Shown here: positions 28,332 to 37,184 of the stretch, piece after piece | How positions within the stretch are numbered: position 1 is the first letter of the stretch | How the letters are laid out: the number at the start of each line of letters is the position of its first letter | Origin: Thermotoga sp. Mc24 | Lineage (GTDB): Bacteria; Thermotogota; Thermotogae; Thermotogales; Thermotogaceae | Assembly (NCBI RefSeq): GCF_000784835.1 | Contig: NZ_JSFH01000011.1 | Span: 1 to 64,000 of the forward strand | Length of the DNA: 64,000 nucleotides | Direction: 5' to 3' | Notes under the pieces: model-generated | Database searches by the model: none | Told to the model about the DNA's origin: nothing | Seen by the model: the letters and a program-made list of their open reading frames with translations, nothing else | Translations under genes and position numbers: made by a program

Positions 28332-28857
28332 ACTATGGTTCTGTTCGAAAAACCAGGAAAGGAGAACACAAGAAAAACCCTTGAAATAGCTATTCAAAAA
28401 GCTTCTGAGCTTCCTTCAAAAAAGCTATTGATCGCTTCTGCTACGGGTTACAGTGCCAGAATGGCCCTCGAAATGATTCCGGAAGGTATGAAACTCATTG
28501 TGGTAACCCATCACGCAGGTTTTGAAGAGCCAGACACCCAGGAGTTCGACGAAGAACTGAGAAAAATATTGAAAGAAAAAGGTCACGATGTTCTCACGGC
28601 AACACACGCTCTCTCCGCAGGTGAAAGGTCTCTGAGGAGAAAATTTGGTGGAATCTATCCTCTTGAGATAATAGCGAACACGCTGAGGATGTTCAGCGAA
28701 GGTGTGAAGGTGGGTGTGGAAATAACGCTCATGGCGGCTGACGCGGGACTTGTCAAAACGTCCGAACTGGTTGTTGCCTGCGGTGGAACGGAGAGCGGTC
28801 TCGACTCAGCAATCGTCGTCAAACCTGCAAATTCCCCAAATCTTTTCGATTTGAAGA

Positions 28858-30962
<2,105 letters not shown>

Positions 30963-32368: not shown

Positions 32369-33283
32369 TTGCCAATAAACGTTCCAAGCGGTCTTCCCGC
32401 GGTGAAAGTTTTAGCAAAAGAAGGCATCTTCGTCATGACGGAAAAGAGGGCGATCCACCAGGACATCCGCCCTCTTGAAATTCTCATCCTGAACCTGATG
32501 CCGGACAAAATAAAAACAGAAATCCAACTTCTCAGACTCCTTGGAAACACTCCTCTTCAGGTGAATGTGACCTTGCTCTACACCGAAACTCACAAACCGA
32601 AACACACTCCCATTGAACACATTCTGAAGTTCTACACAACTTTTTCTGCTGTGAAAGATAGAAAATTCGATGGATTCGTTATTACGGGCGCTCCCGTGGA
32701 ACTCCTTCCGTTCGAAGAAGTAGATTACTGGAAAGAACTCACAGAAATCATGGAATGGAGCCGCCACAACGTGTACTCGACCATGTTCATCTGCTGGGCG
32801 GCTCAGGCGGGATTGTACTATTTTTACGGAATACCGAAGTACGAACTTCCGCAGAAGCTCTCAGGTGTTTACAAGCACAGAGTCGCAAAAGATTCAGTCC
32901 TCTTCAGGGGGCACGACGACTTTTTCTGGGCGCCGCACTCGCGGTACACTGAAGTGAGAAAGGAAGACATAGACAAAGTACCAGAACTTGAGATCCTCGC
33001 AGAATCGGACGAAGCGGGGGTTTACGTGGTTGCAAACAAAAGCGAAAGACAGATATTCATCACAGGACATCCCGAGTACGACAGATATACGCTGAGAGAC
33101 GAATACTATCGAGATATAGGTCGAAATCTGAAAGTGCCGATTCCTGCCAATTACTTTCCAAACGACGATCCTACAAAAACTCCCATTCTCACTTGGTGGA
33201 GTCATGCTCACCTCTTCTTCAGCAACTGGTTGAATTACTGTATCTACCAGAAAACACCTTACAGACTGGAAGACATACACTGA
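32369..33283 (+). CDS. metA: Homoserine O-acyltransferase MetA (probably acetyl-CoA-using)
   Basis: 304 residues, MetA family with a class I glutamine amidotransferase-like fold. The nucleophile Cys142 lies in FICWAAQAG and the His234/Glu236 pair in GHPEYDR. Residue 111 is Glu in GAPVE, where E. coli succinyltransferase has Gly. Glu here is associated with acetyl-CoA use, and I recall the T. maritima enzyme being shown to be a transacetylase. The preceding O-acetylhomoserine sulfhydrylase supports this. TTG start at 32369 with GGAGGGATG before it. A terminator overlaps its last base. Confidence 0.94.
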
Positions 33284-33310
33284 AGAACCCCTTTCGGGGT
33301 TCTTCTTTTT
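33283..33310 (+). terminator. Terminator of metY-metA
   Basis: 9-bp stem AAGAACCCC (33283-33291) and GGGGTTCTT (33296-33304) with a TTTC loop, followed by C and five T. It starts at the last base of the metA stop codon. Confidence 0.9.
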
Positions 33311-33358: not shown

Positions 33359-34483
33359 ATGTCGATTCTATCAGCCCTGGCAAATTTCTTCGCTCAAACC
33401 GCGTTCCCATATCTCACATTTGGGAACATAGCCATGTTCACAGTGGCCATTGCTCTTCTGTATGTAGCTATCGTGAAACACTCAGAACCACTTCTTTTGA
33501 TTCCCATAGCCTTCGGAATCATTCTTGCGAACATACCCGTTGAAACCACTGGAATATTGAACGAAGGTGGTTTTCTCTTCTATATAAAGAAAGGCCTTGA
33601 CCTGGGAATCTATCCTCCCCTCATCTTCCTCGGAATAGGCGCCCTCACAGATTTTTCCTTCATGCTCTCGTATCCGATCACCATCTTTCTCGGTGCGGCT
33701 GCACAGATGGGAATATTTTTCACCTTCTTTGTGGCAAAGATCCTTGGATTTTCTCTGAAACAGGCGGCTTCCATCGCCATCATAGGCGGAGCAGATGGGC
33801 CAACCGCCATTTACATAACGAACACTCTCTCTCCAGAACTGATCGCTCCCATAGCCATATCCGCCTATTCTTACATCGCCCTCATTCCTATCCTTCAACC
33901 TGTCGTTTCCAGAATGTTGGTCAGCAAAGAAGAACGAAAAATAAGAATGAAACCACCAAGAAAGGTAAGCAGATTTGAGAGACTTTCATTCCCAATAGTG
34001 ATAACAGTAGCAACCGCTCTTCTGATTCCAAAATCGCTCCCTCTGGTTGGTTCCCTCATGTTTGGAAACCTCCTCAGAGAAGCGGGGATTGTGAAAAGAC
34101 TCGTTGAAGCCGCCAGCAGATACATACTCGACACGGTGACGATCCTTCTCATGCTGTCAGTTGGTGCCTCGGCAAGGGCTGATGTCTTCTTGACTCCACA
34201 GAGTTTGATGATATTCTTTCTCGGGGCAGTCGCTTTCCTCGTGTCAATGAGTTCTGGGATTCTGTTCGCGAAACTCATGAACCTGTTTTTGAAAGACAAA
34301 ATAAACCCGCTCATAGGAGCGGCTGGTGTTTCTGCCGTACCGGATTCTGCCAGAGTTGCACAGAAACTTGCTCAGGAAGAGGACCCAAGTAACTATATAC
34401 TAATGCACGCAATGGGACCCAACGTGGCGGGAGTCATAGGCTCAGCCACTGTAGCAGGAGTATTTTTGATGTTTCTCAGCTGA
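33359..34483 (+). CDS. Sodium-pumping decarboxylase beta subunit (OadB/GcdB family)
   Basis: A 374-residue polytopic membrane protein that, in this family, couples decarboxylation of a biotin-bound carboxyl group to Na+ export. Typical stretches are PPLIFLGIGALTDFSFML, SIAIIGGADGPTAIYITN with the essential Asp, SVGASARADVFLTPQS, and GAAGVSAVPDSARVAQ near the C-terminus. No alpha (carboxyltransferase), biotin carrier or gamma subunit gene is nearby, so the partner must be encoded elsewhere. SD AGGAGTGGGAAA precedes ATG 33359. A ferredoxin gene follows after 11 nt. The substrate (oxaloacetate, methylmalonyl-CoA or other) cannot be told. Confidence 0.9.
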   Translation: MSILSALANFFAQTAFPYLTFGNIAMFTVAIALLYVAIVKHSEPLLLIPIAFGIILANIPVETTGILNEGGFLFYIKKGLDLGIYPPLIFLGIGALTDFSFMLSYPITIFLGAAAQMGIFFTFFVAKILGFSLKQAASIAIIGGADGPTAIYITNTLSPELIAPIAISAYSYIALIPILQPVVSRMLVSKEERKIRMKPPRKVSRFERLSFPIVITVATALLIPKSLPLVGSLMFGNLLREAGIVKRLVEAASRYILDTVTILLMLSVGASARADVFLTPQSLMIFFLGAVAFLVSMSSGILFAKLMNLFLKDKINPLIGAAGVSAVPDSARVAQKLAQEEDPSNYILMHAMGPNVAGVIGSATVAGVFLMFLS

Positions 34484-34494
34484 GAGGGAAGAAT

Positions 34495-34692
34495 ATGAGT
34501 TACAAAATCGTGGTGAATTATGACTGGTGTAAGGCATGTAAACTGTGCGCGTGGATCTGTCCGACTGGAGCCATCACGAGTGATGAAATAGGAAAACCCG
34601 TGACGAACGAGGACAAATGTACCGGATGTTTAAAATGTGAGAAAATATGTCCGGATATGGCTATAGAAATTGTGAGTGATGAGAATGTCTGA
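34495..34692 (+). CDS. 2[4Fe-4S] ferredoxin-like delta subunit of 2-oxoacid oxidoreductase
   Basis: 65 residues with two complete four-cysteine cluster motifs: CKACKLCAWICP (about residues 12-23) and CTGCLKCEKICP (about 42-53). A short N-terminal strand (YKIVVNYDWC) is typical of KorD/VorD delta subunits. SD GAGGGAAGAAT precedes ATG 34495. The coding end overlaps the alpha subunit gene by 8-17 nt depending on start choice. It would pass electrons from the oxidoreductase to free ferredoxin. Confidence 0.88.
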   Translation: MSYKIVVNYDWCKACKLCAWICPTGAITSDEIGKPVTNEDKCTGCLKCEKICPDMAIEIVSDENV

Positions 34693-35839
34693 GATGATGT
34701 TTCTTCAGGGAAACGAAGCGTGTGCTCTGGGCGCGATAAAAGCGGGATGTAGGTTTTTCGCGGGCTATCCAATCACTCCCTCCACAGAGATAGCGGAGGT
34801 GATGGCAAGAGAACTACCAAAAGTGGGTGGAGTTTTCGTTCAAATGGAAGACGAAATAGCTAGTGCAGCGGCTGTTGTTGGGGCATCCCTCGCCGGTGTG
34901 AAGTCTATGACGGCTACAAGCGGACCTGGGTTCAGCCTCATGCAGGAAGTTATAGGCTACGCGATCATGACGGAAACACCGTGTGTCTTTGTCAACGTTA
35001 TGAGACTTGGCCCTTCCACCGGACTTCCGACGAAACCTGCGCAGGGAGACATCATGCAGACAAGATGGGGAACGCACGGAGATCACGCTATAATTGTCCT
35101 TTATCCTTCATCAGTTGCAGAGGTCTATCGTTACATAATCACTGCATTCAACTTAGCGGAAGAATACAGGACCCCCGTCGTGTTTCTCATGGATGCGACG
35201 CTCGGTCACATGAGGGAAAGCTTCTATCCACCGAAAGATGAAGAATTGTTCATCATAGAAAGATTGAAGGACACTTCTTTTGGAGAAGAAGATCTTTTCG
35301 TACCTTTCTCTGAAAGTGAGTACGCAGAACCCACACCACTTCCCATGGCCGAGATGGGAAAGACGAGATTTCATGTCTCTGGCCTTGTTCATGACGAATC
35401 AGGTTTTCCTCTCACTTCTCCTGATGTGGCAGAAAAATTGATAAGAAGGCTGACGAACAAAATCAGACTCCATGCAGATGAAATAGCTTTCTACGAGGAG
35501 TACGAGACGGAGGACGCAGAAATTCTGGTGGTGGCCTATGGGATAGTCGCAAGAAGCGCTATGAAAGCGGTAAAAATCGCAAGACGCGACAGAATCAAGG
35601 TGGGATTGTTCAAGCCCATCACAATCTGGCCGGCTCCCGTATCACGTTTCAGAAAACTGGCAGAAAAAGTGAACACCATAGTGATAGCCGAGATGAATCT
35701 GGGACAGTACGCAAAAGAACTCATCAGTTCCATAGACAGAAAATCGAAAGTCATAAGAACCATAAACAAAGTGAACGGAGAACTCATAAAACCCGAAGAG
35801 ATTCTGGATGTTATAACCGAAACTCAAATAGAGATTTAA
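34676..35839 (+). CDS. 2-oxoacid:ferredoxin oxidoreductase alpha subunit (KorA/VorA-like), unpaired
   Basis: About 384-387 residues. The N-terminal pyrimidine-binding domain is clear: FLQGNEACALGAIKAGCRFFAGYPITPSTEI, then MEDEIASAAAVVGASLAG, SGPGFSLMQEVIGYA and PSTGLPTKPAQGD. The middle domain and a C-terminal domain II (ILVVAYGIVARSAMKAV) follow. The TPP- and cluster-binding beta subunit and the gamma subunit, normally adjacent, are absent: enolase starts after 55 nt. Four start codons lie within 12 codons (GTG 34676, ATG 34679, 34685, 34694). The gene may need a beta subunit from elsewhere or form a different complex. Confidence 0.88.
   Translation: MMRMSEMMFLQGNEACALGAIKAGCRFFAGYPITPSTEIAEVMARELPKVGGVFVQMEDEIASAAAVVGASLAGVKSMTATSGPGFSLMQEVIGYAIMTETPCVFVNVMRLGPSTGLPTKPAQGDIMQTRWGTHGDHAIIVLYPSSVAEVYRYIITAFNLAEEYRTPVVFLMDATLGHMRESFYPPKDEELFIIERLKDTSFGEEDLFVPFSESEYAEPTPLPMAEMGKTRFHVSGLVHDESGFPLTSPDVAEKLIRRLTNKIRLHADEIAFYEEYETEDAEILVVAYGIVARSAMKAVKIARRDRIKVGLFKPITIWPAPVSRFRKLAEKVNTIVIAEMNLGQYAKELISSIDRKSKVIRTINKVNGELIKPEEILDVITETQIEI

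Positions 35840-35858: not shown

Positions 35859-37184
<1,326 letters not shown>

Follow-up and report, generated by a model that had tools for sequence, protein, structure and literature searches.

A Thermotoga locus that probably joins halves of two ordinary complexes, a 2-oxoacid:ferredoxin oxidoreductase and a biotin-dependent Na+ pump

Why should the gene for a sodium-pump subunit stand directly before those for a ferredoxin and the alpha subunit of a 2-oxoacid oxidoreductase, with the genes for the other subunits of both enzymes missing from their side? The question is raised by a gene trio in the window, i.e. the whole 64,000-nucleotide stretch of Thermotoga sp. Mc24 DNA that was analysed. 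The features of the locus are as follows.

33282–33305, forward strand: intrinsic terminator 3′ of metA, a 10-bp GC-rich stem and then TTTTT
33359–34483, forward strand: oadB, 374 aa (PF03977, 484 bits; TIGR01109, 560 bits against a cut-off of 191)
34495–34692, forward strand: korD/fdx, delta subunit, a 2[4Fe-4S] ferredoxin of 65 aa with two CxxCxxCxxxC motifs (Fer4 families)
34676–35839, forward strand: korA, 387 aa (PF01855 and PF17147; NF006412, 615 bits against a cut-off of 411)

A preliminary description had located this trio correctly, together with the 11-nt gap between oadB and the ferredoxin gene and the overlap of the latter with korA, which amounts to 17, 14 or 8 nt for a korA start at GTG 34676, ATG 34679 or ATG 34685, respectively. 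The strong terminator sets metY-metA apart from oadB-fdx-korA, beside which no beta, gamma, carboxyltransferase or biotin gene is found. Downstream of korA an enolase ORF opens at 35862, its likelier start being GTG 35895 after gaggaggtgg. That enolase follows directly holds for the genus Thermotoga and one sister genus but not elsewhere among the loci read, which places enolase outside the conserved unit; both enolase and metA were rejected as members of the unit, as flanking genes vary between loci. Elsewhere in the window, positions 28335–28892 encode a stand-alone 185-aa protein consisting solely of a pyruvate kinase C-terminal domain (PF02887), and 28858–30201 (minus strand) encodes a radical SAM protein with an N-terminal B12-binding-like region.

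The locus very probably consists of halves of two ordinary complexes, the remaining halves being encoded at other sites of the genome. A search of the genome (12 contigs, here numbered with C, 1.82 Mb, 100% complete) established the composition and copy number of both sets. The missing Kor beta and gamma and the Oad-type carboxyltransferase and biotin carrier genes were located on other contigs:

C2:14471–15271, minus strand: korB, 266 aa (PF02775; WCPGCG, GDGD, GIGCS and NC motifs), with no alpha gene adjoining
C2:13872–14474, minus strand: korC (gamma), 200 aa (PF01558, 118 bits), behind korB
C12:45020–46567: mmdA, a single-copy CoA-type carboxyltransferase (closest solved chain 1vrg, "propionyl-CoA carboxylase, beta subunit")
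C12:44705–45010: an OadG-like small protein, 101 aa, recognised by its position and by 28–35% identity among the proteins that occupy it
C12:44331–44759: biotin carrier, 142 aa, with an EAMKM motif
C4:164921–166324: oadA, a single-copy OadA-type carboxyltransferase lacking a biotin domain

The earlier view of two incomplete complexes thus does not hold, and its proposal of shared subunits encoded elsewhere is borne out by KorB and KorC on C2 and by MmdA, the OadG-like protein and the biotin carrier on C12.

Which beta subunit belongs to the KorA of the window? The genome contains four POR_N alpha genes, and those on C6, C7 and C9 each adjoin a beta. The six TPP_enzyme_C matches comprise these three betas, KorB on C2 and two long frames (600 and 608 aa), neither of which has a POR_N alpha beside it. 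This leaves a single KorB-type beta, followed by a gamma, without an alpha beside it. Pairing of the window alpha with one of the three other betas was considered and rejected; those share only 24–37% identity with the C2 beta and are each accompanied by an alpha of their own. Outside Thermotogota, korA stands next to korB in all 67 loci compared (Tissierellia and other Clostridia-side genomes, Desulfurella relatives, Desulfobacteria and other deltaproteobacteria), and at every one of them the best match among the paralogues of our genome is the window alpha for the alpha and the C2 beta for the beta. This combination of adjacency and best matches indicates that the window alpha belongs with the C2 beta and gamma, a predicted pairing for which the genomic evidence is strong. 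On the Clostridia and Desulfurella sides the genes form operons in the order fdx-korA-korB-korC, with no oadB nearby. The possibility, raised beforehand, of a conventional beta and gamma partnership for this alpha is correct in so far as such genes exist and pair with it by homology, but they are unlinked to it in every Thermotogota genome tested.

The closest solved chains of KorA are 1yd7 and the alpha subunit of 8ys5, and the QMEDE motif of the thiamine domain is kept; the closest solved relative of KorB is the beta subunit of 8ys5, a 2-oxoglutarate:ferredoxin oxidoreductase. For the ferredoxin the top NCBIfam match is TIGR02179 (PorD_KorD), at a score under that model's cut-off, and both [4Fe-4S] motifs are kept in 59 of 60 relatives. 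Since KorA and KorB score below the cut-offs of the strict 2-oxoglutarate (OorA/OorB) equivalogs (415 against 579 bits for NF007206 and 285 against 364 bits for NF007207), KorDABC was not filed as a strict member of that class. Its substrate would be a 2-oxoacid, probably 2-oxoglutarate.

Is the arrangement peculiar to this genome? The comparison set comprised 103 Thermotogota genomes, 98 of which carry both oadB and korA. Just upstream of korA, on the same strand and in the same order, oadB is found in 84 of these 98 genomes and in 9 of 11 families, an adjacency too frequent to be due to chance, and the ferredoxin gene lies between the two in 38 of 39 closely read loci. The three-gene order, the conservation of which the preliminary description had left as a question, is thus kept well beyond this genome. 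The separation from korB is conserved likewise. In none of the 98 genomes does korA lie within 20 kb of korB; the two are on the same contig in 31 genomes, at least 90 kb apart, and on different contigs in 67, in some of which the draft state could hide linkage. The setting of korB-korC is kept as deaminase-korB-korC-dgkA-cheB-like regulator in four families (f1, f2, f3 and f11). The flanks of the trio vary freely: enolase is found in Thermotoga and one sister genus, ppdK precedes oadB in f5, f8, f9 and some members of f10, and in some of f3 the downstream neighbour is secA. As these neighbours change while oadB-korA stays, the split between fdx-korA and korB-korC is old, and the trio has probably been retained by selection. 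The gene ppdK (pyruvate phosphate dikinase) is directly 5′ of oadB at loci L227, L229, L230, L251–L254 and L257, and also at L259–L261, L281, L285 and L286, hinting at a wider PEP/pyruvate/oxaloacetate operon.

Exceptions to the adjacency of oadB and korA are genera g2, g3 and g5 of Thermotoga's own family, families f6 and f7, and genus g20 of f8, in which the sole remaining OadB is only 39–41% identical. G018 is an exception in appearance only, its oadB-ferredoxin pair and its korA being located at contig ends. The genus of G008–G011 has only a distant OadB (39–41%), away from korA, with mmdA present. At two loci the oadB beside korA is broken by stops or a frame change (G063, C1:942508–943604, L282; G030, C2:309199–310169 of that genome, L281), which may reflect sequencing error or decay.

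Turning to the pump, OadB is encoded by a single-copy gene and is the sole Na+-pumping carboxybiotin decarboxylase found in the genome. It aligns with the solved OadB 6iva. In the OadB of the Salmonella pump, Na+ is bound by D203, S382 and N412 (PMC7274780); the equivalent residues here are D146, S325 and N355, each invariant in 60 of 60 orthologues by an alignment-based count. Judged by its family matches and this alignment, OadB is the membrane beta subunit (carboxybiotin decarboxylase/Na+ channel) of a biotin-dependent pump, with its predicted Na+ site intact. MmdA, the only CoA-type carboxyltransferase in the genome, also matches the 12S chain 1on3 and scores below the cut-off of the curated methylmalonyl-CoA decarboxylase model TIGR01117 (896 against 999 bits). 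The OadG-like protein of Thermotoga has no Pfam or NCBIfam match; the protein at its place in G021 matches PF04277 (OAD_gamma) with 49.5 bits. The genome has one strong biotin carrier only, and the AMKM motif with the biotinylated lysine is present in 34 of 34 carriers. OadA scores above the sodium-extruding oxaloacetate decarboxylase model TIGR01108 (777.5 bits against a cut-off of 756.5), and NF010644 labels it pyruvate carboxylase subunit B, though the genome is without a biotin carboxylase. In a 2012 pathway survey, T. maritima, T. petrophila and T. neapolitana are listed without an oxaloacetate decarboxylase gene (PMC3561251).

How might the two halves work? We propose that the ferredoxin and KorA join KorB and KorC from C2 in a four-subunit KorDABC assembled in the cell from the split genes, which would oxidise a 2-oxoacid, most likely 2-oxoglutarate, to the acyl-CoA and reduce ferredoxin. 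OadB would complete a membrane complex with MmdA, the OadG-like protein and the biotin carrier, and probably serves OadA too. A carboxyl group would be moved from an acyl-CoA by MmdA, or from oxaloacetate by OadA, to biotin, from which OadB would free it as CO2 with export of Na+.

A reason for the linkage of the two halves may be seen in gene orders elsewhere. G021 has a cluster mutase-B12 subunit-MeaB-epimerase-mmdA-oadG-bccp in which oadB alone is missing; in G068, G075 and relatives, oadB-fdx-korA-secA adjoins epimerase-mmdA-oadG-bccp; and in most of G067–G077 the trio is about 6 kb from mmdA. Three of these last genomes, read closely, have the order glyoxalase-family gene, mmdA, oadG, with the carrier next in two; the glyoxalase-family gene was taken as methylmalonyl-CoA epimerase. 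The Firmicutes genome at L074 has an operon fdx-korABC-glutamate dehydrogenase-mutase-B12 subunit-MeaB. Together these orders suggest one route joining oxidoreductase and pump, from glutamate through 2-oxoglutarate, succinyl-CoA and methylmalonyl-CoA to propionyl-CoA with Na+ export, the substrates being predicted. It is plausible that KorDABC feeds a Na+-pumping methylmalonyl-CoA decarboxylase in most of the phylum, and the likeliest reason for the linkage would be that this route is ancestral and that the mutase was later lost in Thermotoga. Mutase (PF01642) is present in 90 of 103 Thermotogota genomes, in none of the seven of genus Thermotoga (G000 and G091–G096), and was also not found in the sister G090. 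The genus Thermotoga thus lost the mutase and kept the pump: in it and in G090, mmdA, oadB and the biotin carrier are retained although no mutase was found, so methylmalonyl-CoA has no evident source there. In g2, g3 and g5 the mutase is mostly present, yet oadB has parted from korA. The case for a shared pathway as the reason for linkage is weakened by these genera and by the mutase-less, trio-bearing Thermotoga. Literature searches found nothing on a methylmalonyl-CoA decarboxylase of Thermotogales, and nothing on function among publications naming TM0877–TM0880 or TM0716–0717.

Other readings of the locus have to be weighed. An unusual gene order, and a ferredoxin that evolves faster than KorA (68–75% identity between Thermotoga species), might make KorA and the ferredoxin look like decaying remnants. 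The chance of this is negligible: the frames are open, the TPP and cluster motifs are intact, korA is present throughout the phylum, and its dN/dS of 0.018–0.025 led us to reject a decaying KorA. Relaxed selection on this copy, an idea aired beforehand, is thereby excluded; MmdA, OadB, KorA and KorB are all under strong purifying selection (dN/dS about 0.02–0.06), which for the pump genes means that the pump is still useful in Thermotoga. Recent histories differ within one complex: relative to G093, the korB and korC DNA (C2:13872–15271, L006) is identical (dS 0), mmdA nearly so (dS 0.02) and korA has a dS of 0.37, and the genome looks like a recombination mosaic. A bolder reading, which had also been entertained, is that KorA and the ferredoxin bind OadB, coupling 2-oxoacid oxidation to Na+ export in one complex. 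Retention of the trio in 9 of 11 families despite changing flanks, and the close spacing and overlap of its genes, would suit such a machine. We nevertheless regard it as very improbable, since each half keeps the usual catalytic motifs and, counting the putative small subunit of the pump, has a complete set of normal partners elsewhere in the genome, neither KorA nor OadB carries an extra domain, fdx-korABC occurs outside the phylum with no oadB nearby, and the two parts are separate in several genera.

Could the trio instead have formed once in the ancestor of the phylum and persist by co-expression or inertia, with no pathway in common? Its persistence in Thermotoga, where the connecting mutase is absent, speaks for this, and the neighbours ppdK (upstream, in the families named above) and enolase (downstream, in Thermotoga) point to an operon of general central-carbon function. 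Retention in 84 of 98 genomes amid the loss of surrounding order between families exceeds inertia, however, and an operon outside the phylum ties the oxidoreductase to glutamate dehydrogenase and mutase, so that we hold this explanation to be rather unlikely. Within the preferred reading of two halves of ordinary complexes, there is a sub-case with not quite an even chance of being true, namely that the chief partner of OadB in Thermotoga is OadA, the two forming a Na+-pumping oxaloacetate decarboxylase with carrier and small subunit borrowed from the mmdA cluster. OadA passes TIGR01108 despite lacking a biotin domain, which makes a carrier-sharing oxaloacetate pump likely in Thermotoga; one OadB and one strong carrier are available for sharing, and with the mutase lost the other substrate has no evident source. 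Against a predominance of OadA, MmdA is under equal constraint (dN/dS 0.014–0.042), oadA is distant from the other pump genes, and there is the pyruvate carboxylase label of NF010644, given in spite of the missing biotin carboxylase.

That missing enzyme raises a further question. Biotin carboxylase (PF02785) was found in 0 of 103 Thermotogota genomes and in 13 of the 14 controls, all but T. maritima; its absence from five Thermotogales had been noted by Lombard and Moreira in 2011 (PMC3199775). A search for work on how Thermotoga might substitute for acetyl-CoA carboxylase found this paper only, whose passages on the absence name no replacement. Without biotin carboxylase, ATP and bicarbonate cannot serve to form carboxybiotin, so a biotin-bound carboxyl can only leave via OadB or pass to another carboxyltransferase; nor can Thermotogota, lacking a detectable biotin carboxylase, have an ordinary acetyl-CoA carboxylase. 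FabD occurs in 102 of 103 genomes, so malonyl-CoA is presumably needed. One speculative answer, which we think improbable though worth stating, is that malonyl-CoA for fatty acids comes from the pump set. Either the Na+ gradient would drive acetyl-CoA carboxylation through reversed MmdA-carrier-OadB, or OadA-carrier-MmdA would transcarboxylate with oxaloacetate as carboxyl donor. Na+-gradient-driven acetyl-CoA carboxylation was reportedly observed with other pumps by Dimroth and Hilpert in 1984. In genus g5, OadA was not detected in three of three drafts, FabD was detected and MmdA was found in two of three, which favours the Na+-driven version. If true, malonyl-CoA formation by the pump set would explain why mutase-less Thermotoga retains MmdA and OadB.

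The components of the locus are known; their conserved split and regrouping are a new variation on them. Two central-metabolism complexes of Thermotoga are completed that annotation by neighbouring genes would call incomplete, the gene split is phylum-wide with halves regrouped across complexes, and the source of malonyl-CoA in a whole phylum without biotin carboxylase becomes a testable question.

Compared with known systems, the oxidoreductase has the same four subunits and motifs as KorDABC/OorDABC (8ys5; KorA relative 1yd7), KorA and KorB being closest to this class. Whereas that enzyme is usually encoded in one operon, its genes are divided in the Thermotogota tested between two widely separated loci, fdx-korA and korB-korC. 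The Na+-pumping methylmalonyl-CoA decarboxylase consists of MmdA, a small membrane subunit, a biotin carrier and MmdB; all four have counterparts here, the small subunit a putative one, and other Thermotogota have the mmdA cluster alongside mutase and epimerase genes. In contrast to that system, the Thermotogota MmdB/OadB gene stands apart from the cluster and accompanies fdx-korA, Thermotoga is without the mutase, and its MmdA is under the curated family cut-off. With the Na+-pumping oxaloacetate decarboxylase (OadA, OadB, OadG; 6iva/6iww) the locus shares identical Na+-site residues in OadB, and an OadA-type carboxyltransferase is present, but the Thermotoga OadA stands alone without a biotin domain, and its carrier would be common with MmdA. 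Finally, the 12S-like MmdA (1on3), the 5S-like OadA and the biotin carrier, with no biotin carboxylase, recall methylmalonyl-CoA carboxytransferase (transcarboxylase; 12S, 5S and 1.3S), from which the present set differs in its dispersed genes and in the additional presence of the membrane protein OadB.
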